From a virus, in the IMG/VR virus record IMGVR_UViG_3300030102_002069, positions 1 through 20,394 of that record: a stretch of DNA of 20,394 bases. One strand, 5' to 3'. The position numbers and the translations under genes were made by a program. The first letter of the stretch is position 1. Every line of letters begins with the position of its first letter. Of this stretch, positions 1,436-14,882 are shown in pieces. Under the pieces are notes generated by a model. The model was not told the origin of the DNA. It worked only from the letters and a program-made list of their open reading frames with translations, and did not search any database.

Positions 1436-1872
1436 TAGTTTAACCTCCTCCACCAACATTGATTATAACCGTTTCCGTCAGACTGTATAGAATGACCGCT
1501 ACTGTTACTATTAGCATTGCCTTGTAAGTACCATGTATCACCATTAGCTGTTGTGTCTACAATCCATACAAAGTGTTGTTGAACATTTATTGCAGAAGCG
1601 TTTTGAGCCTGCTCGAACGCCATTCTTACGTGATCACCATTTCGAGAACCGTCACTGGTTCTATATACTACATATCTTTGAAATGAAGCCGCACCCCAGT
1701 TTCTAGTTCTTAAGCTAGCATGTAACTCATAAACTCCAGCAGAAGGGACAGTCCATTTATAATAACTGGTATTATAACTACTCCAGCTATTATAAGATGT
1801 TGTAATATTACTTACAAAACCGCCAATAAGTGGAGCTAACCATGTGGAGTTACTGTTACCTAAATATGCCAT
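1435..1872 (-). CDS. C1q/TNF-like jelly-roll adhesin, probable tail-fibre tip protein
   Basis: The protein has 145 residues with the signature of a C1q-like jelly-roll. WTVPSAGVYELHASLR (about 40-55) matches the family pattern in which a Pro-x-x-Gly-x-Tyr turn leads into the next strand. GDTWYLQGNANSNSSG (about 110-125) and a C-terminal strand NQCWWRRLN fit the closing strands. It is rich in Asn, Ser, Trp and Tyr, typical of a surface or carbohydrate-binding head, and has no signal peptide. C1q-like domains usually trimerise, matching a trimeric tail fibre. Its ATG overlaps the fibre stop as TAATG, so the two are probably made together, and a chaperone-like gene follows. I infer that it forms the fibre tip or a detachable receptor-binding head. 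The residue-level call is from fold pattern, not a search. Confidence 0.65.
   Translation of the reverse strand: MAYLGNSNSTWLAPLIGGFVSNITTSYNSWSSYNTSYYKWTVPSAGVYELHASLRTRNWGAASFQRYVVYRTSDGSRNGDHVRMAFEQAQNASAINVQQHFVWIVDTTANGDTWYLQGNANSNSSGHSIQSDGNGYNQCWWRRLN
1443..1451 (-). promoter_or_regulatory. Strong Shine-Dalgarno for the chaperone-like gene
   Basis: On the minus strand the sequence is GGAGGAGGT, ending seven bases before the ATG at 1435 and lying inside the last codons of the C1q-like gene. It is the clearest ribosome binding site in the window, and it decides the start at 1435 rather than 1459. Confidence 0.8.
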
Positions 1873-4800
1873 TAAGATACCTCCGTTAAATTAAATTTGT
1901 ATTTTTTACCAGAACGATTATTCTTTAAGAACAAGTCTGATTCTCCTTCTTGTATTGTCCAGTCACCCCATGTACCATCTACATCGTTAGCACCACCTTC
2001 GTTAGATAAGTTAAGGTCATTGGTATAAACGTTTCTCCAACGACGTGAAGAAGCACCTAAGTCATAACTATTATTAGCAGTTGGTCTAAGATGACCACTA
2101 GTATCTATTTCTGTGCTAACAACTCCATTAGCTCCAAAACGTAATGGTCTGTTTTCTCTTCCAATTAAATAATGATAGTTATTATCAAGACCCATTAACA
2201 TTCCGTTAGTACTTGTGTTAGTACCATCTTCGCTACGAAAAGCAACAAATAAACATTGACCAGAAGCTACACCTTGGACTACATATGTTGAGTTATTAGT
2301 TGATTGAGGGTTAAGTCCAACTCCTAAAACTCCATTTACCCTTGATCCATTACTGTGTGTTTCAAACTTTTTAGATCCATCGTAATACAACTCAACATCT
2401 ATATCTGCATTAAACTCAGCAATTTTTTCTGAACCTCCAGATTTTTGAATATGAACTGCACTATCTTGTCTGATATATAAAGTGCCAGTACTGTTTTCTA
2501 GGTAGCTATCCGAGCCGTTGTGATAAAGTTGTAGGTCTTGACTAGCACCGATTTTTAATCTTTGACCATCAGTATTTATATGAATACTACCAGAGTTAGC
2601 GTGTATATCACCTGTAACTGTAACTCCACCACTTGTAGTCTCAAACTTTTTACTGTTGTTATAGGATAACTCTACTGCTCCACCAGCTTTCATTATTGCA
2701 CTATGTCCGCCAGACGCAGTTATAAATTCTAGGTCGTGACCATCTGCAAAAATTAATAAATCACCTTGAGCACCACTTACTTGTTTGATATAACTATTGC
2801 TACCATCGTGATAAATTTGTAGATCTGAGCTATTACCAAGCTGAATACCATTGCTCGGGCCGTCAGGAAATACAGCAGCACCAGTTATGTAAATTCCACC
2901 ACTTGTAGTCTCAAACTTTTTACTGTTGTCGTAGTATAATTCTACGGCTCCATTATCTATAAATCTACCCATATGTTCAGCAACGTCATTTCCACCTTTA
3001 AGTCTTATTTCGTTGTTACTGCCTATGTTTAGATTTCCAGTACTGTTAATTATGTAACTACTATTACTTTGATGATAAATTCTTAGATCATCGCCAGTTC
3101 CAAATCTTACTTGATTAGTAGATCCATTAGAATCAGGAAAACTTATATACTGACCATTAGAATCTAAAGTACCACCCAATTGAGGTGAACTGTCAGAAAC
3201 TAAATCTGTATTAACAACTTGGAATGTTCCATCACCACGATAAAATGTTGTAGAGTTTTTAGTTCCAGTTCCAATACGTGCTACAGGAACTGTTCCTGAT
3301 GCAATATTAGATCCATTTAAAGCTGTTATGTTTGATCCATTACCATATAAAGTGTCTGCATAAACGTTTCTCCATCTTGTTCCAGTTAATCCTAAATCAC
3401 TAGCACTATCATTTGAGGGAATAAGATGGTCATCAGTATTAAGAGTTATACCTTTAGTTGCTGTACTATCACTAAACATTCTGAGACCATTAGTTGAGTC
3501 GCCTCGCAAATGACCCGAAGCTATTTCTATTTCACCTGAAGTTTTCACTCCATAACTTGTGGTCTCAAATTTTAAAGTACCATTATGGTTAAGCTCTATG
3601 CCTCCATTACGAAACAGTCTCATCATATTTTTATGCTGAGTGTTCGTACCATCAGTGCCTCTTATAGTTAAAGCATGACTAGTTCCTAAATCGGCATCTA
3701 TATACTTAGCAGCTTGAGTACCCATTAAATCTAGTTCACCAGCTACAACTAATCCACCTGTTGCAGTAATATTTCCAGAAACTGTTACTCCTGTACTTGA
3801 AGTTTCAAACTTTTTACTGCCATCATTATATAGCTCTATTGACCCTCCACCATTAGCAACAAGCATATCATTATTATTACTAATCCTACGAAGCAAAAAT
3901 GTACTTGTTCTAGTTATTAATGAACCTGTGCCAACATCTTCTATATATGCATTTGAGCCATCGTGGTAAATTTGAAAATCTGACCCCGTACCGTATATAG
4001 ACTTTACGTTGTTGTTATGGTTGTTACTACCAGTAAACGTGTTACCAGTAACAACAGCAAAGTTACCTGTAGCTGTAACACCATCTACCCAGGCACTACC
4101 AGTATAAACCTTAAGTGAGTTAGATGTAGTGTTAAAGAATAAGTCTCCAACATCTAAGCTAGTTGTAGGGTTGTTTGCACCTATACGATATGTATTAAAG
4201 AAACTGTTAATATTAGATATGTTACTTGCTACTGTGTTTACGTTTGATATAGAACCAGCAGTTGTATTTACGTTTGCTATAGATCCAGCAGTAGTATTAA
4301 CATTTGCAATAGAGCCTGCAACGATTCCTATATTGTCATCAGTAACTGTTATAGTGTTACCCATACCGTTACCATGCACAGTACAATAATAACGTAAAGA
4401 GTTAGGTGCGTTAGCTGCTACAGCAATGACTACAGTAGCTCCTGACTGACCCTCAGTACCACTAACAGTTACTCCTGTTGTATATGAGTTACCACTACCA
4501 TCTTTAAATCTTAAAGGATGACCATTATTACTACTATCTGATACGTCAAATGTATATGTAAATCCTCTAGCAAGAGTTAACGCTGGTGATTGTTGTCCGT
4601 CTACAAAGAAATAGTTAGAACCACTTACATTTTGTACGGTAATAGTAAAAGTTTGTGTACCGCCTACTACAGCTGCTACAGTATTTACTTTTGCTATATT
4701 TGTACCAACATTGTTTACATTAGCGATACTGCCAGCTGTTGTATTTATATTAGACGCATTAGCTACAGCTGCATTAATGTTAGATGCGTTGCCAGCTACT

Positions 4801-6356
4801 GACGTAATATTAGAGTTATTACCAGCTACAGCTGTGATATTGGATGCGTTTGATACCGCAGCATTTATATTAGATGCGTTAGCTACAGCAGCATTAATAT
4901 TACTTGCATTGTTCGCAGCAGCATTTATGTTAGTTATATTACCAGCTACAGTTGTAACCTCTGTTGCTTTTGGGACTAATCTATGAAAACTATACGTATG
5001 TGTTGTGCTTGTCGATTCTACTAAAAATCCAAAACCAGTAGGTATGGTAGAGGTCACACCAGTTATGATAATGTTAGCGTTGTTAGCTAAGTTACCATTA
5101 CTTATAGTTACAGTTGTACCGCTAGGAACTAAATTAGTCGAGGCCGCCTTGATACTTAGTACAGCTGCTTGGCCTGTAGTACCTTGTGGGTTGGTATTAG
5201 GAAAGTGTTGCTCACTCTGTATAATATCAAAACCACCGACATCGTCTATAAGATCAATAATTCTGTCGTTGATAGCTGCGGTTGTAGCAATCGTAGTATC
5301 GTTGTCAGGAAATGTATCACCGTCTTTAATTGTTTCACCAGAACTTATGTTAAAGTATCTAGCATCTGACTCTGTTTCAGTAAAGTATCTACCGTCGAGA
5401 GCACCGTTAGTAAGCTCTGTTTCAGTAAAGTATCTACCGTCAAGAGCACCGTTAGTAAGTTCTGTTTCTGTAAAGTATCTACCGTCTAAAGTACCTGTTG
5501 CTATTTCAGAGTTAGTTATCTTATCTGATTGCAATAATGTTTTTATCTCACTTGCTGTTTGGTCGTCTTTAGCTCCAGACTCTATACCGTCTAATTTTGC
5601 TTTATCAGACGCTGACATAGTACCAGCTGCTGAACCTGTAGATGCTGCTATTTTTGATCCATCTATTGCTGCACTTGCACTTATATCAGCATTGACAATA
5701 GTTCCGTTTAAAATTTTATCTGAGTTCACAGAACCATTAATTAGTTCTGTAGTTCCCACGGAATTGTTAGCTAATTTATTTTGAGTTACGGCTGAGTTAG
5801 CTATGTCACCTTCCACAATAGTACCATTAACTATATGGTCTGTTGTGACAAAATTTTTAGTTATAGAATCACCTTCAAACAAGGCTCCTTCTATTTCAAA
5901 CGCTTTATTTCTAGCCTCTTGACCTGTAAAATTAGACTCATCAAACGCATTGTTTATATCAGTCGATCTTATTGTACTACCACCCGCAAAGTTAGTATAA
6001 GAACTTGATGCGTCCCTAGTTCTACGCTCAACTGATACCACAGCTCCTGTAGGAAGCGTAGTACTGAACGTAATTGTATTGTTATCTGTGGATAGTGTGT
6101 AGTTATATAAAGTTGTACCAGCTGAAACTGCTGGGAAGTATAATCCGTCAGTATTGTTGACCTGTGGGTGGCTAGATTGTGCTGTACTACCGCTTGTTTG
6201 GCGTAGTTGTAGCACCCTTGTACCACCTGACAGAGTTACATATACATCCAGATCATCATGGTTATTCAATTCGATCCCAACGGGGGTAAAGACAGTCGCA
6301 GACTGCCCATTTGTACCCACTGCGTTAGGAAATGTTTTTTTAGTTGTTACTGCCAT
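1872..6356 (-). CDS. Tail fibre protein with T7 gp17-like N-terminal attachment domain, 1494 aa
   Basis: The N-terminal ~165 residues match the T7-type fibre attachment domain (FPVGIELNNHDDLDVYV-like sequence, LYNYTLSTDNNTITF, then the helix FDESNFTGQEARNKAFEIEG) that docks on the tail. Next come an acidic/Asn stalk with NGTIVxxDI repeats, three copies of FTETELTNGALDGRY-type repeats (about 285-329), and an Asn-rich coiled-coil stalk (about 464-561). A cupredoxin-like domain follows (about 568-672; His613, Cys658, His661, Met665), then more stalk (about 678-719). Residues about 770-1400 are modules alternating DLQIYHDGSNSYI and ELYYDNSKKFETTSGGV motifs. The end has the marine-fibre sequence SYDLGASSRRWRNVYT and FLKNNRSGKKYKFNL. 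No chaperone protease domain is seen. It is much longer than T7 gp17 (553 aa). It begins 25 bases after the gp16-like stop, without a Shine-Dalgarno. Role: host receptor binding. Confidence 0.9.
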   Translation of the reverse strand: MAVTTKKTFPNAVGTNGQSATVFTPVGIELNNHDDLDVYVTLSGGTRVLQLRQTSGSTAQSSHPQVNNTDGLYFPAVSAGTTLYNYTLSTDNNTITFSTTLPTGAVVSVERRTRDASSSYTNFAGGSTIRSTDINNAFDESNFTGQEARNKAFEIEGALFEGDSITKNFVTTDHIVNGTIVEGDIANSAVTQNKLANNSVGTTELINGSVNSDKILNGTIVNADISASAAIDGSKIAASTGSAAGTMSASDKAKLDGIESGAKDDQTASEIKTLLQSDKITNSEIATGTLDGRYFTETELTNGALDGRYFTETELTNGALDGRYFTETESDARYFNISSGETIKDGDTFPDNDTTIATTAAINDRIIDLIDDVGGFDIIQSEQHFPNTNPQGTTGQAAVLSIKAASTNLVPSGTTVTISNGNLANNANIIITGVTSTIPTGFGFLVESTSTTHTYSFHRLVPKATEVTTVAGNITNINAAANNASNINAAVANASNINAAVSNASNITAVAGNNSNITSVAGNASNINAAVANASNINTTAGSIANVNNVGTNIAKVNTVAAVVGGTQTFTITVQNVSGSNYFFVDGQQSPALTLARGFTYTFDVSDSSNNGHPLRFKDGSGNSYTTGVTVSGTEGQSGATVVIAVAANAPNSLRYYCTVHGNGMGNTITVTDDNIGIVAGSIANVNTTAGSIANVNTTAGSISNVNTVASNISNINSFFNTYRIGANNPTTSLDVGDLFFNTTSNSLKVYTGSAWVDGVTATGNFAVVTGNTFTGSNNHNNNVKSIYGTGSDFQIYHDGSNAYIEDVGTGSLITRTSTFLLRRISNNNDMLVANGGGSIELYNDGSKKFETSSTGVTVSGNITATGGLVVAGELDLMGTQAAKYIDADLGTSHALTIRGTDGTNTQHKNMMRLFRNGGIELNHNGTLKFETTSYGVKTSGEIEIASGHLRGDSTNGLRMFSDSTATKGITLNTDDHLIPSNDSASDLGLTGTRWRNVYADTLYGNGSNITALNGSNIASGTVPVARIGTGTKNSTTFYRGDGTFQVVNTDLVSDSSPQLGGTLDSNGQYISFPDSNGSTNQVRFGTGDDLRIYHQSNSSYIINSTGNLNIGSNNEIRLKGGNDVAEHMGRFIDNGAVELYYDNSKKFETTSGGIYITGAAVFPDGPSNGIQLGNSSDLQIYHDGSNSYIKQVSGAQGDLLIFADGHDLEFITASGGHSAIMKAGGAVELSYNNSKKFETTSGGVTVTGDIHANSGSIHINTDGQRLKIGASQDLQLYHNGSDSYLENSTGTLYIRQDSAVHIQKSGGSEKIAEFNADIDVELYYDGSKKFETHSNGSRVNGVLGVGLNPQSTNNSTYVVQGVASGQCLFVAFRSEDGTNTSTNGMLMGLDNNYHYLIGRENRPLRFGANGVVSTEIDTSGHLRPTANNSYDLGASSRRWRNVYTNDLNLSNEGGANDVDGTWGDWTIQEGESDLFLKNNRSGKKYKFNLTEVS
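2625..2659 (-). repeat. 35-bp direct repeat in fibre gene, copy 1
   Basis: This copy is identical to 2895-2929 over 35 bases, at a spacing of 270 bases (90 codons). It encodes the NSKKFETTSGG part of the repeated fibre module. Conservation at DNA level, not only protein level, suggests recent duplication or gene conversion between modules. Confidence 0.85.
2895..2929 (-). repeat. 35-bp direct repeat in fibre gene, copy 2
   Basis: This is the second copy of the repeat at 2625-2659. Further diverged copies of the same KKFET motif lie near 2360, 3570 and 3810, so the fibre shaft is a series of related modules. Confidence 0.85.
4200..4325 (-). repeat. Asn-rich stalk repeats, left of the cupredoxin domain
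   Basis: These bases encode repeats of AGSIANVNT (residues about 678-719), each about 14 residues long and partly conserved at DNA level. They match the stalk on the other side of the cupredoxin-like domain, so the domain appears to be inserted within one stalk. Confidence 0.7.
4341..4655 (-). other. Cupredoxin-like (blue copper) domain encoded within the tail fibre
   Basis: Fibre residues about 568-672 start with a beta strand FTITVQNVSGSNYFFVDG. They contain FTYTFDVSDSSNNGHPLRF and end with LRYYCTVHGNGMGNTITV. The residues His613, Cys658, His661 and Met665 reproduce the ligand order of type-1 copper proteins. In plastocyanin the spacing is His37, Cys84, His87, Met92, so the first interval is 45 here against 47, and C-x2-H is identical. 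The last interval is x3 instead of x4. The hydrophobic strand pattern also fits a small Greek-key beta sandwich. Copper binding itself is inference; the domain could be structural only. Confidence 0.75.
4675..4965 (-). repeat. Asn-rich coiled-coil stalk repeats
   Basis: These bases encode about 97 residues of near-heptad repeats of the type NASNINAAVA and AGNxSNIxxV. They are typical of thin trimeric phage or adhesin stalks, with Ile/Val at core positions and Asn in the core. The repetitive codons also create long, meaningless open frames on the plus strand here. Confidence 0.8.
5371..5505 (-). repeat. Tandem 45-bp repeats (three units) in the fibre gene
   Basis: Three consecutive 45-base units start at 5371, 5416 and 5461 and encode the 15-residue unit FTETELTNGALDGRY (residues about 285-329). 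The first two units differ at very few bases, so copy number may change by slippage or recombination and alter fibre length. Confidence 0.85.
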
Positions 6357-6381: not shown

Positions 6382-9300
6382 CTAGGGTGTGGAACCACCT
6401 AGTTCTATTATTCTTTCTACTTCTTTATTTGTTTCAGAGGCTGAGAAACCTTGTTTATTAAGTCTATCTCTTAATTTTGGTACAAAGATACGTGATCTTA
6501 ATGATTTAGGATCTTTTAAATCAGAAAAAGGAGTTCCTGGAAGCAACATTTGAGCTTTTGCTCTGTTTTTGGCTGCTTTAAACACGTTATCTATCTCATA
6601 ATAGAACGGTTCTTTCCTAACATCAAAACCTCCTACCTCATTTCCAAAAACTCCTGCTAAACCATCCTTAGACATTACACCTTGGTTGGTTTTTTTACGT
6701 TGTTCTTTGTAATCTTTAAGAGATCTTTGCACAGGTTTACTGTTTATTACCCTTAATAAGTCTTTTCTAAGAAATTTATCTGTAGCTAAAAGCCTGTTAA
6801 ACTCAGATAATTCAGTAGCAGTTAATTCAACACCATCAATAGATGTTAAATTAGCATTGAGATCATATTCTATTTCCATTAAAAAGTCAGTTACAGTATC
6901 GGACTTTTCAAAATCTATACCTACTGGAGATATAAGGTTAAATCCTCTAAGAAGTATATTTTCAGGCAACATATATAACTTCTTTTCAGTACGTTCTTCA
7001 TTAAATATATCATATTTTTGTGGTAAAAATAATTCTGCCGCACCAGAACGTCTCATAAATTTTTCATTCATAGACTGAGCTTCTTTCACAGTACCATCTG
7101 CTAAATCGGCAAAATCATTCATAGCTCCTGTCATTGGTATAAAGCTAGCACCTTGAGCAGCTATTGTACTTTCAATTCTACTAGCAGGATTTTCAGAAGT
7201 AAATAAACCAACAAGCTCTTCTAAACCACCCATAGGGCCGTTGTTAACTAATAATTCACCAAAAATAATTGATAGTTTTGCTAAACCCTCATCCATTAAA
7301 CTTTGACCTAAAACATGAGCGTTCTCTGCCATATTACCTACTAAATTAAATAATACGTTAAATATTTCTAATTTTTGAAAACTGATATACACTTTATCGC
7401 CAGTTATAGGATTCTTATACATAAGACTATTAGGTTTTATGCCAGCTTGTATCCACATAGCACGTTTTCCTGGATCTCTTGGGTAATCACCTGTTAACTG
7501 TCCTCTTGATGCTGCAAATATAGCCAAGGCAGTAGCAATGGTGCCTGTTGCCATACGTCCTTCCATAAATGCAATTTCTTGAGGAATATCTGCTTTAGCT
7601 ATACCTAATTTTTCTAATTCTTCTAAATTACCTGTGACTAAAGCTCTATATTTTTTATTCGCTAAACCAAAAGGTGTGTGTAAAAATGCTAATTCTAAAC
7701 CATTAACTGCTGGGGTTAAGAATTTAAAAAACAATCTACTTCCTGGAATGGTAGATGCAAGTACCTCAAAGGCTTTTGCTGTACCTGTTAAAGATTTTGT
7801 AAGTGTAGCTTCATCTCCAGCTAATTTAGCCATCTTATCTTTTGTTACCCAAATTCCAATACCATCTTCACTATCGTCAATTTTCTTAAAAATTTTATTT
7901 CTATATTGTTCCTTAAATAAAGGTAAGTATTTTTTTAAATCTCTTGGGTCTACACCATCTTCAATAAGATCTCTTGCAGCTCTAGCATACATCATTTGAT
8001 GACCAATAGAGGTACGTGCTGCGGCATCTCCCGCTGCCATTGAGATAGTACTATGCCTAGCAAACGCATTTGTGTTTAATTCTTGTAAACCTCTAGTAAG
8101 TCTGTACGCTATTTGTGTGCCAAGATTACCATATCTTTTTACAAAATCACCATGAGCAATAAAATTGTCTTTATTACGTTTTATAGCATATCTACCTGTA
8201 TAATCAGTATCCATGCCTTTTCGTCCTAAATTATAATTTCTTTTGAACATAGCCATTGATTCACCTAAAGATGCAAACAAACCATCTATTTCAGCAAAAG
8301 CTATTGCAACCTCTTTTTCAGTATATCTGGGAGCATTTACATCAATAAGTTCTCTAAATCCTTGCGGGGCTGTAAACTTATTTCTATACAATCTATAAGG
8401 GTTAACAATACCAACAGCCTTCATAAATCCTCTATATCCACCTAAAAAACCAGTTCCAAAGATTGCTTTAACAGGAGTTCCTATACGTGATAATAAACCA
8501 TTGTACATAACACCATACAACTCTTGTACAGTTTGACTAGGTAAGGCTTTAAATCTTGCACCTTTCTTTCCATGAAAACCAAAGAATGTGCCACCAAAAA
8601 CTTTAGAGTTTAAATAAACTGCAAGATCTTCAAGAGACAAAACATCTCCATCACTTAATTCAAACATACGTATTAAATCCTGAAGCCCAGAGTCATCTCC
8701 AGTTTTTTGTGCTTCTTTCAATAATTTTATCATGTTGTCGTGAAGTTTATCTGCATCTCGACTTACGTTCAATAATTTTTTAGAAATATTCTTATTTGCT
8801 CGTAATGTATCAATACGTTTCAAATCACCAGCTTGTTGTAGCTGACCATCTAAACCCCAAGCATATTGGTACTCTTTTGTCTTTTCAAAAACTACTTTCA
8901 TTAAATCAGCAAGTTTTTCAAAATTAGTAAACACCGACATTCCATTAGATATTTCTAAGGTACCCGCTGACAGGTTAGCCATTGTTTTACCTAAAGAGCG
9001 TAATATAATTAGGTTAGCGTCTTTTTGTACAGGGCCTATTGTGTCGATAATTAAGCTGTTACCATCTTTATCCTTACCATAAGAGAAAGTTCTAAATTCA
9101 TCACCTTTCTTTTTACCAATACGTAAACGTGTTTCATAAGATCTTTTTAAATCTTTAATCTTACCTTGTGTAAAACCAGCGATGGATTCTAATATAGGTT
9201 CAGCACGTCTAACGGCTTGTATTGCAAGAGCTTCATAATCTTCACCTGAATAGGTTTTAGCCATACGTTTTGATATGTCATCAACTACTTCTTGAAAAAT

Positions 9301-10926
9301 TTGTCTTAAATTTTTGTCGCCTCCAGCTGCTCTATCAATCAACTCTTTACCAATAGCTGTGTTAGAAGCTCTTGTTGGGGATGTGTTAGATGGGCCTTTT
9401 GCATGATTAAGAATATCAGCTTCATCGACTAAATTTGTTTCTATTTCAGGACTTGTTTTAGCTTCAGTAACTACATCTTCAATAGCATCTACATTTTTAG
9501 AATATGTTACTTTTTCAATGTCGTCAAATAATTCTGGATTAACATGTGCATCTGGTTGACGACCTACATTTTCTAAATCTAAATCTGTACTAGAATACTT
9601 AATGTCATCCCAGACATCACCTTTACTAGCACCTATACGTTTAGCTAGATCAGTATATCTAATAATTTCATCTTGATTTTTGGCAAACTGTACTCGATCT
9701 ACACCTTCAAGACTGTTAAATTCAATTAATTCAGAGTATGCTTTTAGATCATCTTCATCTAGATGATTTCTAATATATTTATCTAAAGGATCAGTAGGGT
9801 CTACACCAATACCAAGATTATTCTTAACTTTAGCTAATTTTTGTGCCGCTCTTTCTTGGTTAAGCATTTCTCTAAGAACTTGTCTTTTTAGTTCATTAGT
9901 ACCAGCTTCGTTACCAATCTGGACTGCTTCATCTAGCGACTTACCTGATTTTTTAGCTTTATCAAAAGCGGCTTTAGCTGCTTTAGGAGCATGCCTAAAA
10001 AATGCACTAACATACCAACCAATGTGATTAAGACCACCTCCAGCTGCTACAGTCTTTAATTTTGCCTCCCATACACTATCATTATCATCAACAGCTAATC
10101 TATTAACAATAGGTGGTACTAACCAAGGTGTGTACTGGTTTGCTAAGTTAATAATATTACCACCTTCTGAGGATTGAGAAATTAATTCTGCTGCTCCCCC
10201 TTCTCCAAAAACACGTCCAGCTTTACTTATAAATTGTAAAGGTTTATTACTTGCTATAAATTTTGAACCTGATCTTAATACACCAAGATTTGTCAAGCCA
10301 GCTTTAGTAAGAGTTGCTTTACCAATACCGCCTACTCCACCTGTAAGTCTAACTAAAAGTCCAAACTCAATTAGACCTCTAGCCATTTTTCCTATATTAG
10401 TTTTATTCTCAGGTTCATAAACATCTGGCATTTCAAAGTAGCTACCACCCTTATAATTTTCATGGAAAGGGTTTTCAGTATCTTTGACTGGTTGACCGAG
10501 AACATGTTTCATTCCCGTTTCCAAAGTGTCCTTACTAAGATAAGCAAAGTTACCTAAACTTTCAGCAGTGTCAATTATACCTCCTGATACAGACCTAATT
10601 GTTTCAGGAACTACACCTTTCTGCTCGTTTATCACTTCTTGGGCTTCAGCCATATCTTCAGATTTTTGTGCAAATATAGCTTCTTGGTCAGCTCTAATTT
10701 CTTCTTTACTGCGTTGATCTCCTTGAAATCTGTTGTCAACAAAATCTCTTGCATTGACCCTTAGATCATCTGTAAATTGTTGAAAAGCATTTTTAGAATC
10801 ATTTTGTTTTGCAAATTCTTCTGCCATACTACTAACATCTGACATGTCAGGTAGTTGGTTTTCTGTATTTTCCTCTTGGGGTAAATACTCCTCGTTATTA
10901 TTTTCCTGAGTTTCAAATTCTTCCAT
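6382..10926 (-). CDS. Internal virion protein D, T7 gp16-like, 1514 aa
   Basis: This is the largest gene here, in the T7 gp16 position (between the gp15-position gene and the tail fibre), and the length is in the range of gp16 (1318 aa in T7). The N-terminus is acidic and probably flexible (MEEFETQENNNEEYL). A Gly-rich hydrophobic patch follows around 180-215 (GLLVRLTGGVGGIGKA), then long helical, charged stretches. The C-terminal half includes FGTGFLGGYRGFMKAVG, a hydrophobic segment near 1125-1140 (TGTIATALAIFAASRG) and GDYPRDPGKRAMWIQAG, which I associate with gp16-type core proteins of marine podoviruses. Such proteins are ejected and help to build the conduit across the inner membrane. 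I see no lytic transglycosylase signature at the N-terminus, unlike T7 gp16. The start overlaps the previous stop as TGATG. Confidence 0.85.
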   Translation of the reverse strand: MEEFETQENNNEEYLPQEENTENQLPDMSDVSSMAEEFAKQNDSKNAFQQFTDDLRVNARDFVDNRFQGDQRSKEEIRADQEAIFAQKSEDMAEAQEVINEQKGVVPETIRSVSGGIIDTAESLGNFAYLSKDTLETGMKHVLGQPVKDTENPFHENYKGGSYFEMPDVYEPENKTNIGKMARGLIEFGLLVRLTGGVGGIGKATLTKAGLTNLGVLRSGSKFIASNKPLQFISKAGRVFGEGGAAELISQSSEGGNIINLANQYTPWLVPPIVNRLAVDDNDSVWEAKLKTVAAGGGLNHIGWYVSAFFRHAPKAAKAAFDKAKKSGKSLDEAVQIGNEAGTNELKRQVLREMLNQERAAQKLAKVKNNLGIGVDPTDPLDKYIRNHLDEDDLKAYSELIEFNSLEGVDRVQFAKNQDEIIRYTDLAKRIGASKGDVWDDIKYSSTDLDLENVGRQPDAHVNPELFDDIEKVTYSKNVDAIEDVVTEAKTSPEIETNLVDEADILNHAKGPSNTSPTRASNTAIGKELIDRAAGGDKNLRQIFQEVVDDISKRMAKTYSGEDYEALAIQAVRRAEPILESIAGFTQGKIKDLKRSYETRLRIGKKKGDEFRTFSYGKDKDGNSLIIDTIGPVQKDANLIILRSLGKTMANLSAGTLEISNGMSVFTNFEKLADLMKVVFEKTKEYQYAWGLDGQLQQAGDLKRIDTLRANKNISKKLLNVSRDADKLHDNMIKLLKEAQKTGDDSGLQDLIRMFELSDGDVLSLEDLAVYLNSKVFGGTFFGFHGKKGARFKALPSQTVQELYGVMYNGLLSRIGTPVKAIFGTGFLGGYRGFMKAVGIVNPYRLYRNKFTAPQGFRELIDVNAPRYTEKEVAIAFAEIDGLFASLGESMAMFKRNYNLGRKGMDTDYTGRYAIKRNKDNFIAHGDFVKRYGNLGTQIAYRLTRGLQELNTNAFARHSTISMAAGDAAARTSIGHQMMYARAARDLIEDGVDPRDLKKYLPLFKEQYRNKIFKKIDDSEDGIGIWVTKDKMAKLAGDEATLTKSLTGTAKAFEVLASTIPGSRLFFKFLTPAVNGLELAFLHTPFGLANKKYRALVTGNLEELEKLGIAKADIPQEIAFMEGRMATGTIATALAIFAASRGQLTGDYPRDPGKRAMWIQAGIKPNSLMYKNPITGDKVYISFQKLEIFNVLFNLVGNMAENAHVLGQSLMDEGLAKLSIIFGELLVNNGPMGGLEELVGLFTSENPASRIESTIAAQGASFIPMTGAMNDFADLADGTVKEAQSMNEKFMRRSGAAELFLPQKYDIFNEERTEKKLYMLPENILLRGFNLISPVGIDFEKSDTVTDFLMEIEYDLNANLTSIDGVELTATELSEFNRLLATDKFLRKDLLRVINSKPVQRSLKDYKEQRKKTNQGVMSKDGLAGVFGNEVGGFDVRKEPFYYEIDNVFKAAKNRAKAQMLLPGTPFSDLKDPKSLRSRIFVPKLRDRLNKQGFSASETNKEVERIIELGGSTP

Positions 10927-13900
10927 CAGGGTAAAACTCCTTGTGTTCTAAGTTTTTGGATATATTGGTTTGCAAAAGCATTGATAGTAGGTAGGTTGAA
11001 CTTGTCCATATCGCCCCGTAAGACGTTAGCTACATGGTATCTAGCAGCTAGGTGTAAGTCACCATTAGCTTTAGTTAAAGCTGCACTAAATGATTTTGCA
11101 TTGAAATATTCCCACAACTCTTTTTGTAATACTTCATCTTGTCTATAGCGGTTAAGTGCCTTAGCATAATTTAAACCACTTAAAGGGTTATCTTCATCTC
11201 TATCTTTAGTTAATTTTAAGATCATACTACGAGTAAAAGGATATTTACCTATAGTTTGTTCTAATCTTTTTCCTATTGACAATTTATCCATATCAGGTAA
11301 AGGGTCAACTAACTCACCATTAACTCGTTTTTGTATATCTAAATGTATATCTGTGGATGCACCTGTATTACCTATCTCACCTATAATCTCACCATTATAA
11401 GCTGCACCTATTTTAAGTTTAGGGTTGTAATTTTTTAAATGGTTAAATCTATATGCAGTACCATCTGGGGCAGTAATTTCTATAGTAACTCCTAAAACTT
11501 TATCAGATCTATTGTCAGTAACAACACCATCCTGTATTTTAAAAGCTGTGAAGAAACCCTCTTTACCAGTTGTACCTACATCAAGTCCATTGTGAGGGTT
11601 GCTTGCACCTTCAGGTAATTTTTCTGGATCTCTTTTAACTCCAAACTTACCATTAGCAGATATACCTATGTATCTATTACCAAAATGTTTTTCACCATTA
11701 ATAGTCTGTACCTGACCAGCATCTAACTCTAAACCTTGTGCTGTAATTTCGTTTTTCACAACATCCTCAAAGTTCATACCAATAAATGCCTGTGTAATAG
11801 TCTTAGCATTAAATGGGTCAAGATCAGTAATAAGTCTTTTAACAACCTTAGTGCTTGTATTACCTTTAGATTGCAATGCCATTAACTTACTACCAGCTTC
11901 ACTATTAAGTATAGAATTTTTAAATAAATCGTAATTTTCTGGTTTTGTTATTATTGGTAAACCAAATGCTTCATTTTGTAATACAGAAAAATCATACTGA
12001 GGTATAGACATACTTTGAGCTATGTACATGGATGATAAATCTTTTAAACCACCATTATCATCTATGTCTACATTTTTAGTTATTTTTTTATCTGCACTTG
12101 TATCATTAATTTTTATATCGTTAATTTTTTCTGGTAAAGAATATTGATGTTTGTAAGGATTGCCCCCATACTTTTCTTTATAAAGGTTTTGAAAACCACC
12201 GTCAAGTCTATCATCAGTAGTAACATAATAACGACTGGTTTGACCAGCTGCTCCGCTTGTATTAGCTTCAAGTACTTGTGTCTTAAATTGTTTTAATGCT
12301 TCTTGAAAAGAGTCAGTAAAGGTTAAAACTTGTCCCTGATCTTTTGCAGCTTTTTGTATAGCATAAGCATTGAATTTTATTTCTGATAAAAACTCATTGT
12401 AAGCTACTGTAAAGGTACCACTGGGATCTTTAACACCGCCTATAGTATCAATTACAAAAGAATCATTTAATCCTGCAAGAAAAGTTTTAAAATCTTTTTC
12501 TATACGTTCTACATCATCTTTTTCTATTGAAGGGTATAATTGTGGTACTACTCGAATGTTAGGATTAGCTTCTAAAAACTCTTTTTTAGTTTCAATATCT
12601 AACGTAGGGTCTGCAAACTGGGCAGCTGTTATGACACCTCCTTGTTCCTTTGCTGTTGCTTTTAAAGATCTGACTGTAGCATCAGGGCTAGATGGATCTA
12701 AAAATATTCTAGAAGAAGAATCAATAATTGTTTGTGTAGCAAATGGATACTTGTCATGTAAACTTTCAACAAAATCTGATTTTTGTTGTTCAGTATCTCT
12801 TTCTTCAGATGATAATTTTTCTTGAGCATCAATATAATTCTCAACACTCATTTTTACAACTGCTTCTTGAAATGCTTTTTGACTATTATATTCAGCAACT
12901 ACCGCTTTTTGTTTTAATTGTTTTATAACAAAAGGACTAAACTTAGCTTGATGTAATTCAGCTAAAGATTTAAAACCAGCTGGTGTGTTAGTTTTTACAT
13001 TTAAGGCAGCGTTAATTCTATCTTCTAATAAATCTGGGTTAGATGATCTTTTAAATGCCTCTTCAACTCTAGTTTGCAACCGTTCTAAAGCTATAGCTCC
13101 CTTGGATTTATTTTTTGAAGTGCTCACAAATGGTTTAGCAGAATTAATATAATTTGGCAACATTTGGTCTAAAGAAGGAAATCCTACAGAACCATCTAAC
13201 GAACCGTCTAAAAGATTATCTAAACCAGCTAACTGACTAGCATTAAACTCAGCATCTATATCTGCATACCTTTTTTTAAGGTTTTCTTTCATCACCTTTC
13301 TAGCAGGAGTTACTAACAACTCTGCTGTAGTTTGGTCATTTAAGTCACCTCTATTTTCTTGCGTCCATTTATCTAAGACATAATTAGAAGCAATAGCTAA
13401 TTGTTTTTTAGTTAAATTAGGATCATTAACACTAAATGGGACATTACCATCAAGTAGTTGTGTATCATCAATTTTTAAAGCATTATCTAAATGAGCACTA
13501 AACCCTTCTACTTTTAACGCTTTGTCTTTAGCTTGATAACCATATGTATAAGCTCCAGAAAAAATACCTCTGATTCTTCTAGCTTTTTCATCTTTAAAAG
13601 GGTCAGTGCTGTTTTCTATATCTTCAGCAAGTTTATTACCCTTTTGAGTTATGTCAAGTTGTTTATTAGCAACAATATCTATCGCCTTTTCTGGGCTGTC
13701 AAAACCTCTTCCTGGAAGGGTTCCAAAGTTACCAAAGGCTTCATCATCAGGATCTAACGCTTGAGTATCATCGTAAAGATCAGGAGCTGCTAATTCTTCC
13801 ATAACTCTATCAGCAGAACCTTGAGCTCTAGCTGCAGTCATTCCTGTTTTAGCAATACTAGGTATTGTTTCACTTAAAAGATTTTGTAATGTTTTACTAA

Positions 13901-14129
13901 ATTGAGCAGCTTGTTGAGCTTCATAGTTACTAACCCTTAGATAGTTGTTTGTGATTCTTTGCTCTTCAGCTCTTTGTTCTGCAGCTGACTGTACTCTTTT
14001 TGCAATCTCTTCTTTAGCTCTTTTTTCTATTTGAGCAGCGTACTGCTTTTGTCTATTGACATCAGAAGATGGTGTGCGTTGAGAAAAACCCGTTTGCCAC
14101 TCACCACTTCTACGAAATCCTTTTGCCAT
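10926..14129 (-). CDS. Internal virion protein C (T7 gp15 position) with M23 endopeptidase-like domain, 1067 aa
   Basis: The gene lies in the gp15 position, after the gp14-like gene. The N-terminus (1-~110) is Gln/Ala/Arg-rich and coiled. A long helical region follows to about residue 780. Residues about 820-945 form an M23 (lysostaphin-type) domain: HNGLDVG (His846, Asp850), YRFNHLKNY (His897), GEIIGEIGNTGASTDIHLDI (His929, Asp931). The usual HxH second zinc histidine is Asp931 here, so activity is not assured. M23 enzymes cut peptide cross-bridges of peptidoglycan, which would suit an ejected core protein opening the cell wall. The C-terminal ~110 residues are helical (AARYHVANVLRGDMDKF) and may contact the gp16-like protein. 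Length exceeds T7 gp15 (747 aa). No clear Shine-Dalgarno; AT-rich nine-base gap upstream. Confidence 0.85.
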   Translation of the reverse strand: MAKGFRRSGEWQTGFSQRTPSSDVNRQKQYAAQIEKRAKEEIAKRVQSAAEQRAEEQRITNNYLRVSNYEAQQAAQFSKTLQNLLSETIPSIAKTGMTAARAQGSADRVMEELAAPDLYDDTQALDPDDEAFGNFGTLPGRGFDSPEKAIDIVANKQLDITQKGNKLAEDIENSTDPFKDEKARRIRGIFSGAYTYGYQAKDKALKVEGFSAHLDNALKIDDTQLLDGNVPFSVNDPNLTKKQLAIASNYVLDKWTQENRGDLNDQTTAELLVTPARKVMKENLKKRYADIDAEFNASQLAGLDNLLDGSLDGSVGFPSLDQMLPNYINSAKPFVSTSKNKSKGAIALERLQTRVEEAFKRSSNPDLLEDRINAALNVKTNTPAGFKSLAELHQAKFSPFVIKQLKQKAVVAEYNSQKAFQEAVVKMSVENYIDAQEKLSSEERDTEQQKSDFVESLHDKYPFATQTIIDSSSRIFLDPSSPDATVRSLKATAKEQGGVITAAQFADPTLDIETKKEFLEANPNIRVVPQLYPSIEKDDVERIEKDFKTFLAGLNDSFVIDTIGGVKDPSGTFTVAYNEFLSEIKFNAYAIQKAAKDQGQVLTFTDSFQEALKQFKTQVLEANTSGAAGQTSRYYVTTDDRLDGGFQNLYKEKYGGNPYKHQYSLPEKINDIKINDTSADKKITKNVDIDDNGGLKDLSSMYIAQSMSIPQYDFSVLQNEAFGLPIITKPENYDLFKNSILNSEAGSKLMALQSKGNTSTKVVKRLITDLDPFNAKTITQAFIGMNFEDVVKNEITAQGLELDAGQVQTINGEKHFGNRYIGISANGKFGVKRDPEKLPEGASNPHNGLDVGTTGKEGFFTAFKIQDGVVTDNRSDKVLGVTIEITAPDGTAYRFNHLKNYNPKLKIGAAYNGEIIGEIGNTGASTDIHLDIQKRVNGELVDPLPDMDKLSIGKRLEQTIGKYPFTRSMILKLTKDRDEDNPLSGLNYAKALNRYRQDEVLQKELWEYFNAKSFSAALTKANGDLHLAARYHVANVLRGDMDKFNLPTINAFANQYIQKLRTQGVLP

Positions 14130-14138
14130 AATTAATTT

Positions 14139-14882
14139 TTATGAAGTTGACCACCACGCTCTATTAGCATTTCCTGAAGCATGTCCTATACCAGAACCAG
14201 TTTTGACTCCTGCACTAAAGCCAGTCATAATAGATCCAAGCATACTTGGTTTTTCTGGGCCTGCCATTTCAACTGGTTTAACAGTTTTAAACTCAGCTGC
14301 CTGTGCAACTGGAGCTGCCATAACATTGTTAAATGCTTGATTGTCAGCTGAATACTGACTGAGTAATAAGTTATATTCTTGTAGACCAAATCCTTTTCTA
14401 GCATTATATACACTTGCATCAACAGCAGCTTGTTCCATTCCTAACTGTCTTTCCTGATCGTTTAGTGTTAGTAGCATAGACTGTCCTGCAGCCATACCAC
14501 TTGCAAGTACTGTACCTTGGGCCCTGATAGATTCCGCTAATCTTGTCTGACCTTCAAATAATGCCTCTGATATTTTTTCTCTTAATTTTAGTTGGTTTGC
14601 TGTGGATGCTCTTGATTGCTCTAATTGGTTTAGATCTTTCTGCCTTTCCATTGCGGTAACTGAGGCAGCTTGAGCTTCTAATTGTGCTTTAAATACGTTT
14701 TGTTTTTGCTGGTCTTTGAAAGCAGATATTTGTATTTTATTTAGATAATCCTGCTTCGCTTGATAGTTTGACCTATCTACCGCTGCTTTCTGAGCTCGGT
14801 ATTGTGCCATCTTCGCTTGTCGATCTGCGATTGCAGTCCCAACTCCCGAAATACCTGCCAAAGCTAGTGTTACTGTACACAT
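14139..14882 (-). CDS. Internal virion protein B, T7 gp14-like, 247 aa
   Basis: This has the length and position of T7 gp14 (196 aa), between the gp13-like and gp15-position genes. The N-terminus has a short hydrophobic stretch (TLALAGISGVGTAIA), followed by about 110 residues of Gln/Ala/Lys-rich helix (AKMAQYRAQKAAVDRSNYQAK, KAQLEAQAASVTAMERQ) that looks like coiled coil. The C-terminus is Gly/Ser-rich with a hydrophobic patch (MLGSIMTGFSAGVKTGSGIG). gp14 proteins form part of the ejected core and insert in the outer membrane, which fits the amphipathic character. The start MCTVTLA overlaps the end of the preceding gene by 13 bases. No Shine-Dalgarno is evident, so it is probably translated by coupling. 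Identification is by synteny and composition. Confidence 0.8.
   Translation of the reverse strand: MCTVTLALAGISGVGTAIADRQAKMAQYRAQKAAVDRSNYQAKQDYLNKIQISAFKDQQKQNVFKAQLEAQAASVTAMERQKDLNQLEQSRASTANQLKLREKISEALFEGQTRLAESIRAQGTVLASGMAAGQSMLLTLNDQERQLGMEQAAVDASVYNARKGFGLQEYNLLLSQYSADNQAFNNVMAAPVAQAAEFKTVKPVEMAGPEKPSMLGSIMTGFSAGVKTGSGIGHASGNANRAWWSTS

Follow-up and report, generated by a model that had tools for sequence, protein, structure and literature searches.

In the Anabaena cyanopodophage A-4L, placed in Saffermanviridae, ORF28 (YP_009042798.1, annotated 'peptidase') encodes a 1058-aa protein with an M23 domain in its C-terminal half. ORF28 sits between the putative gp14-position ORF29 and the long gp16-position ORF27, whose product matches no Pfam family. 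It agrees in length and M23 content with the 1058-residue 'Internal protein' chain of PDB 9k2v, 'Cyanophage A4 pre-ejectosome', which matches the M23 profile. The paper on this structure is reportedly that of Hou et al. in PNAS in 2025. T7 gp16 and K1E gp35 also carry a peptidoglycan hydrolase on an ejected internal protein, in K1E on a gp15-like protein, and the gp16 hydrolase domain can sit on gp15 homologues such as K1E gp35 (PMC8954989). These activities are glycan-cleaving or lysozyme activities, however, and not peptidase. In M23 enzymes, the His and Asp of the H(x)nD motif and the second His of the HxH motif are zinc ligands, and the counterpart of LytM His260 and the first His of HxH act on water (PMC9662197).

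We investigated a viral DNA stretch of 20,394 nucleotides (IMG/VR record IMGVR_UViG_3300030102_002069; hereafter the window), in which a 1067-aa protein in the same slot as A-4L ORF28 carries an M23 domain. An M23 domain in the gp15-position slot is not new, since A-4L ORF28 and the 9k2v chain precede it. Sequence homology between ORF28 and the window protein can be recognised in the M23 domain only, and ORF28 has the canonical HLH motif, whereas the window protein has HLD. T7 gp16 and K1E gp35 resemble the arrangement proposed here, but their hydrolase domains are not homologous to the window domain. In P-SSP7, 9515-10a and P-SSP10, gp16 and the nozzle protein are homologous to those of the window, as is gp14 in 9515-10a and P-SSP10, but gp15 lacks an M23 domain and shows no sequence homology to the window protein.

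The gp15-position protein and its M23 domain

The genes and the domain concerned are the following.

14139..14882, minus strand: gp14-family internal virion protein, 247 aa (Pfam T7_gp14, 2.1e-6; phrog_15746)
10926..14129, minus strand: gp15-position internal/ejection protein, 1067 aa (open reading frame with ATG start; M23 domain in the C-terminal third)
11301..11597, minus strand: M23/LytM domain, residues ~845-943 (Pfam PF01551, 8e-9; genome search, 2.7e-12; structure model; Foldseek)
6382..10926, minus strand: gp16-like internal virion protein, 1514 aa (phrog_6651 'internal virion protein', 2.5e-185; no transglycosylase (SLT) domain in Pfam scans)

The reading frame at 10926-14129 on the minus strand is flanked by the gp14-family gene and the gp16-like gene, the latter lying downstream in transcription. 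Ten distinct relatives of its product, drawn from uncultured marine podoviruses (L002-L008 and L026-L032, among which L006/L007, L028/L029, L026/L027 and L030/L031 are near-copies), are ~50% identical to it end to end, with the M23 domain in the same place and the same neighbours. A tblastn search with the whole protein against 50,697 phage records gave no match, and the M23 domain alone as query gave one cyanophage match, to Synechococcus phage RB11-B (E=2e-4). In the 210-kb RB11-B genome (L127), the similar M23 domain (41% identity) lies in a separate protein adjoining baseplate/spike genes. Comparison by hhalign with gp15 of T7, P-SSP7 and 9515-10a returned probabilities of at most 1%, and P-SSP10 gp15 likewise showed no sequence homology. 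The gp14-, gp16- and nozzle-type proteins of the window are clearly homologous to the cyanopodovirus ones, and the protein between them is not detectably so against 9515-10a. A model of the whole protein was mostly helical and poor (pLDDT 60); its top Foldseek match was 9k2v over 867 columns, but with a TM of 0.10 and from that low-scoring model.

A T7-type RNA polymerase is encoded by an independent virus contig close to the window (L001, described below). One of the relatives (L031) carries psbA, suggestive of cyanobacterial hosts for at least part of the M23-bearing clade. From homology and synteny, we infer that the window phage is a marine cyanopodovirus-type (T7-like) phage and that the 1067-aa protein is its gp15-position ejection protein, located in the virion and ejected. 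Elsewhere in the window, positions 1872-6356 encode a tail-fibre-like protein of 1494 aa, which has a match to the N-terminal part of the T7 tail fibre and contains repeated stretches. Its L001 homologue matches mainly at both ends, suggesting that the centre of this protein turns over fast between near-identical viruses.

Profile searches placed Pfam PF01551 (Peptidase_M23) on residues 845-943 (E=8e-9; 36 bits, above the curated cut-off of 28.7; profile positions 2-96 of 96), and the domain also matched a PHROG metallo-endopeptidase family (E=1.3e-10) and, by sequence, M23 chains in the PDB. An AlphaFold model of a 171-aa domain construct had a mean pLDDT of 82, rising above 90 over most of the core. 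A fold search with this model gave 56 PDB matches at E<=0.001, the best 50 of the 56 being mainly M23/LytM-domain entries, and Foldseek assigned a probability of 1.00 to many M23 structures, including ShyA, MepM-type enzymes, lysostaphin and LytM, indicating the LytM beta-sheet fold. These matches bear out an earlier note, made from the DNA letters, that had placed an M23 domain in this protein.

The HLD active site and its origin

The domain contains HNGLD at residues 846-850 (11594-11580, minus strand), NHL at residues 896-898 (11444-11436, minus strand) and IHLDI at residues 928-932 (11348-11334, minus strand). The earlier note had listed these motifs and five of their residues (H846, D850, H897, H929 and D931) in the M23 order, with an Asp in place of the zinc-ligand His of HxH, and every one is found exactly at the listed position, D931 having the same GAT codon in L001. 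The active-site residues are as follows; invariance refers to three alignments of relatives (A1, A2 and A4).

11592..11594, minus strand: H846, zinc-ligand His of HxxxD, codon CAC (invariant)
11580..11582, minus strand: D850, zinc-ligand Asp of HxxxD, codon GAT (invariant)
11439..11441, minus strand: H897, counterpart of LytM His260, catalytic His, codon CAT (invariant; role per PMC9662197)
11343..11345, minus strand: H929, first His of HxH, water-activating, codon CAT (invariant)
11337..11339, minus strand: D931, Asp replacing the second (zinc-ligand) His of HxH, codon GAT (His in 10/10 distinct close relatives)
11331..11333, minus strand: Q933, at a position where K/R/Q is typical of HLD domains (Glu in 10/10 relatives)

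The H(x)nD zinc-ligand motif is thus present (H846-x3-D850), as is the additional catalytic His ~30 residues before HxH (H897). The HxH motif itself reads H929-L-D931, with the first His kept and the second replaced by Asp. Canonical M23 endopeptidases (LytM, lysostaphin, ShyA and MepM) have the fold, HxxxD, the central HL and the first His of HxH in common with the window domain, but they have the second His where the window has Asp. Because of this replacement, the domain is an M23-fold HxD variant and not a canonical M23 enzyme.

Since CAY and GAY codons are one base apart, a sequencing or assembly error could in principle have produced the Asp codon. L001, a distinct genome of 43.9 kb that is 98.07% identical to the window over 14.6 kb (266 mismatches), has the GAT codon for D931 too, together with the linked residues I932 and Q933 (HLDIQ), which refutes an error and leaves that explanation a negligible probability. 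The marine M23-bearing relatives have HLHFE where the window has HLDIQ, and are ~50% identical with the same neighbours. All ten of the closest distinct relatives have HLHFE, indicating that the change to HLDIQ is local. In the tree, the HLD pair formed by the window and L001 nests within an otherwise HLH clade with 99% SH-aLRT support.

The chief rival to an active enzyme is an M23 fold with little or no catalytic activity, serving solely to bind peptidoglycan or to help assemble the ejection tube; the missing third zinc ligand would then be a sign of lost function, as in proteins of the EnvC/NlpD type. One of the canonical zinc ligands is gone, and 11 clade-invariant domain residues have been replaced in this lineage, including A896N, H931D, F932I, E933Q and D937N; these five (residues 896, 931, 932, 933 and 937) lie in or beside the motifs. 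M23 proteins that lack catalytic residues can serve as non-enzymatic scaffolds, and there are known cases of degenerate M23 folds in non-enzymatic roles (PMC9662197). The rate of change argues against this explanation, however: clade-invariant sites were replaced at 11/55 positions in the M23 domain and at 91/370 in the rest of the protein (p=0.50). The domain is therefore not decaying faster than its surroundings, and decay under relaxed constraint was not supported. The comparison with L001 also indicates purifying selection, with dS 0.058 and dN 0.004 over the whole gene (dN/dS ~0.07) and four synonymous and no non-synonymous differences in the M23 region. EnvC-type dead folds lose several catalytic residues, whereas here one of five has changed, and specifically to Asp. 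By these comparisons, the lineage has retained the domain and changed its active site. We consider a dead or nearly dead domain unlikely, also in view of the recurrence of the same substitution described below.

HxD sites in other M23 domains and the predicted function

That the changed zinc site is special to this phage was not supported when the pattern GNTG-x5-HL-D was searched across 2.9 million viral contigs. The scan found at least 36 viral loci with HLD, all in open frames and one of them on L001's own contig, and the complete upstream HxxxD...H set was present in 22 of the 36. In 85,000 bacterial and archaeal genomes, GNTG-x5-HLD gave at least 117 matches, of which at least 52 are full M23 domains by motif; those among the matches listed come from Spirochaetes, Bacteroidales, Clostridia, Deltaproteobacteria and DPANN archaea. 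The same viral scan with His gave at least 120 loci. Control scans with Asn (HLN) and Glu (HLE) found three viral loci and one, respectively, none of them M23, which makes Asp the specific substitute at the second HxH position. Together, the viral loci and the full bacterial and archaeal domains show that the M23 site occurs naturally and repeatedly in an HxD form. Literature searches found no description of HxD in M23, and none of the ten PDB alignments listed was to a solved HLD M23 structure.

The substitution was accompanied by a difference two residues further on (position +2). Among the matches listed, with related sequences counted, Glu occupies this position in 58/85 HLH domains and in 2/71 HLD domains, whereas K/R/Q is found there in 53/71 HLD and 10/85 HLH domains. 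The window shows both changes, D931 and Gln at +2. M23 domains of the HLD type in tape-measure-like proteins of viruses and in bacterial proteins (e.g., L104, L115, L290, L336 and L344) share HxxxD, HL and HLD with the window, and the window Gln agrees with their K/R/Q-rich +2 position, but the proteins that carry them differ from the window's. A tree of 148 domains gave 14 H/D changes by parsimony, only two of which are forced by well-supported branches, and a tree-based paired test of the coupling between Asp and +2, with only two well-supported independent pairs, was underpowered and not significant. The window HLD apparently arose inside the HLH clade, separately from the other HLD domains.

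The order of the motifs varies among HLD loci. In 14 of the 36 viral loci (L082, L086, L088, L089, L091, L093, L098, L099, L100, L103, L107, L109, L114 and L117), and in L254 from Leptolyngbya, the GNTG-HLD segment precedes the HxxxD segment. These domains, most of them within long tape-measure-like reading frames and all HLD by the search pattern, have GNTGxSTGPHLDIR followed by ITSxYGxR...HxGIDYGxP...H(L/Q/G). None of the 117 HLH matches examined has this order. The loci with GNTG-HLD first look like circularly permuted M23 domains.

That the same substitution and the same +2 change recur in many domains keeping everything else argues further against a dead fold. We favour an active enzyme: the gp15-position ejection protein probably carries a zinc-dependent His-Asp-Asp variant of the M23 endopeptidase. 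The 1067-aa protein would be packaged and then ejected at infection with the gp14- and gp16-like proteins, and its M23 domain would make way for the trans-envelope tube by cleaving stem-peptide cross-links. H846, D850 and D931 would bind the zinc (His-Asp-Asp in place of His-Asp-His), H897 and H929 would activate water, and E933Q, in line with the K/R/Q usual at this position of HLD domains, would compensate for the added negative charge. Asp is a good metal ligand, and other enzymes, histone deacetylases among them, are catalytically competent with zinc sites of two Asp and one His; zinc binding by D931 and catalytic activity of the window domain are predicted. More broadly, and tentatively, HxD could be a second, working version of the M23 zinc site (His-Asp-Asp, with the +2 Glu lost in step) that has arisen repeatedly and independently across many lineages. 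One recent case would be the ejected core protein of this podophage, whose close HLH relatives permit direct comparison. On this reading, HxD would also mark the circularly permuted M23 domains found in tape-measure-like proteins of phages.

The gp16-like protein and wall opening

The earlier note had seen no transglycosylase in the gp16-like protein and had suggested that, in this lineage, wall opening may have passed from a gp16 transglycosylase to the gp15 M23 domain. Its first point stands: Pfam profile scans of 11 members of the gp16-like family, including the 1514-aa protein, found no SLT, whereas the T7 gp16 positive control was detected (E=5.8e-33). No SLT was found in the contigs of seven relatives either. 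The transglycosylase match in the 1514-aa protein that the note had said would count against its reading thus did not turn up.

A move of the activity would fit gp16-like proteins without SLT in the M23-bearing clade, and hydrolase swaps between gp16 and gp15 have been described (K1E gp35, PMC8954989). The 1514-aa protein is, however, homologous to cyanopodovirus gp16 over ~90% of its length (over 1245 columns in 9515-10a gp16, and also to P-SSP7 gp16), and SLT is absent from this gp16 family even where gp15 carries no M23: neither SLT nor M23 was found anywhere in the records of P-SSP7, 9515-10a, P-SSP10 and P-SCSP-R27W (L118, L119, L125 and L126). Because these four cyanopodoviruses without M23 are also without SLT, lack of SLT characterises the family and does not depend on whether M23 is present. 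The 1514-aa protein shows no detectable homology to T7 gp16, and with the family lacking SLT nothing indicates that an SLT-bearing gp16 was ever present in this lineage to be lost. Nor are the gp15-position proteins detectably homologous to P-SSP7 or 9515-10a gp15, which suggests replacement of a whole gene and not movement of a domain. We therefore regard the proposed move as very improbable; replacement of the whole gp15 gene is possible, judging from the protein comparisons. Since their records contain neither SLT nor M23, the wall-opening enzyme used at entry by these four cyanopodoviruses, if any, is an unrecognised one.

With the predicted domain, a marine T7-like clade joins the podophages known to have a peptide-cutting domain in an ejection-position protein, and it becomes visible that the ejection proteins of the cyanopodoviruses checked are without a recognised wall-opening enzyme. 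The HLHFE and HLDIQ domains, ~58% identical, form a natural pair for the effect of the third ligand on metal choice and specificity. If HxD sites are active, the HxH rule for telling active from degenerate M23 domains would misclassify a considerable number of lysins associated with virions and of bacterial wall hydrolases.
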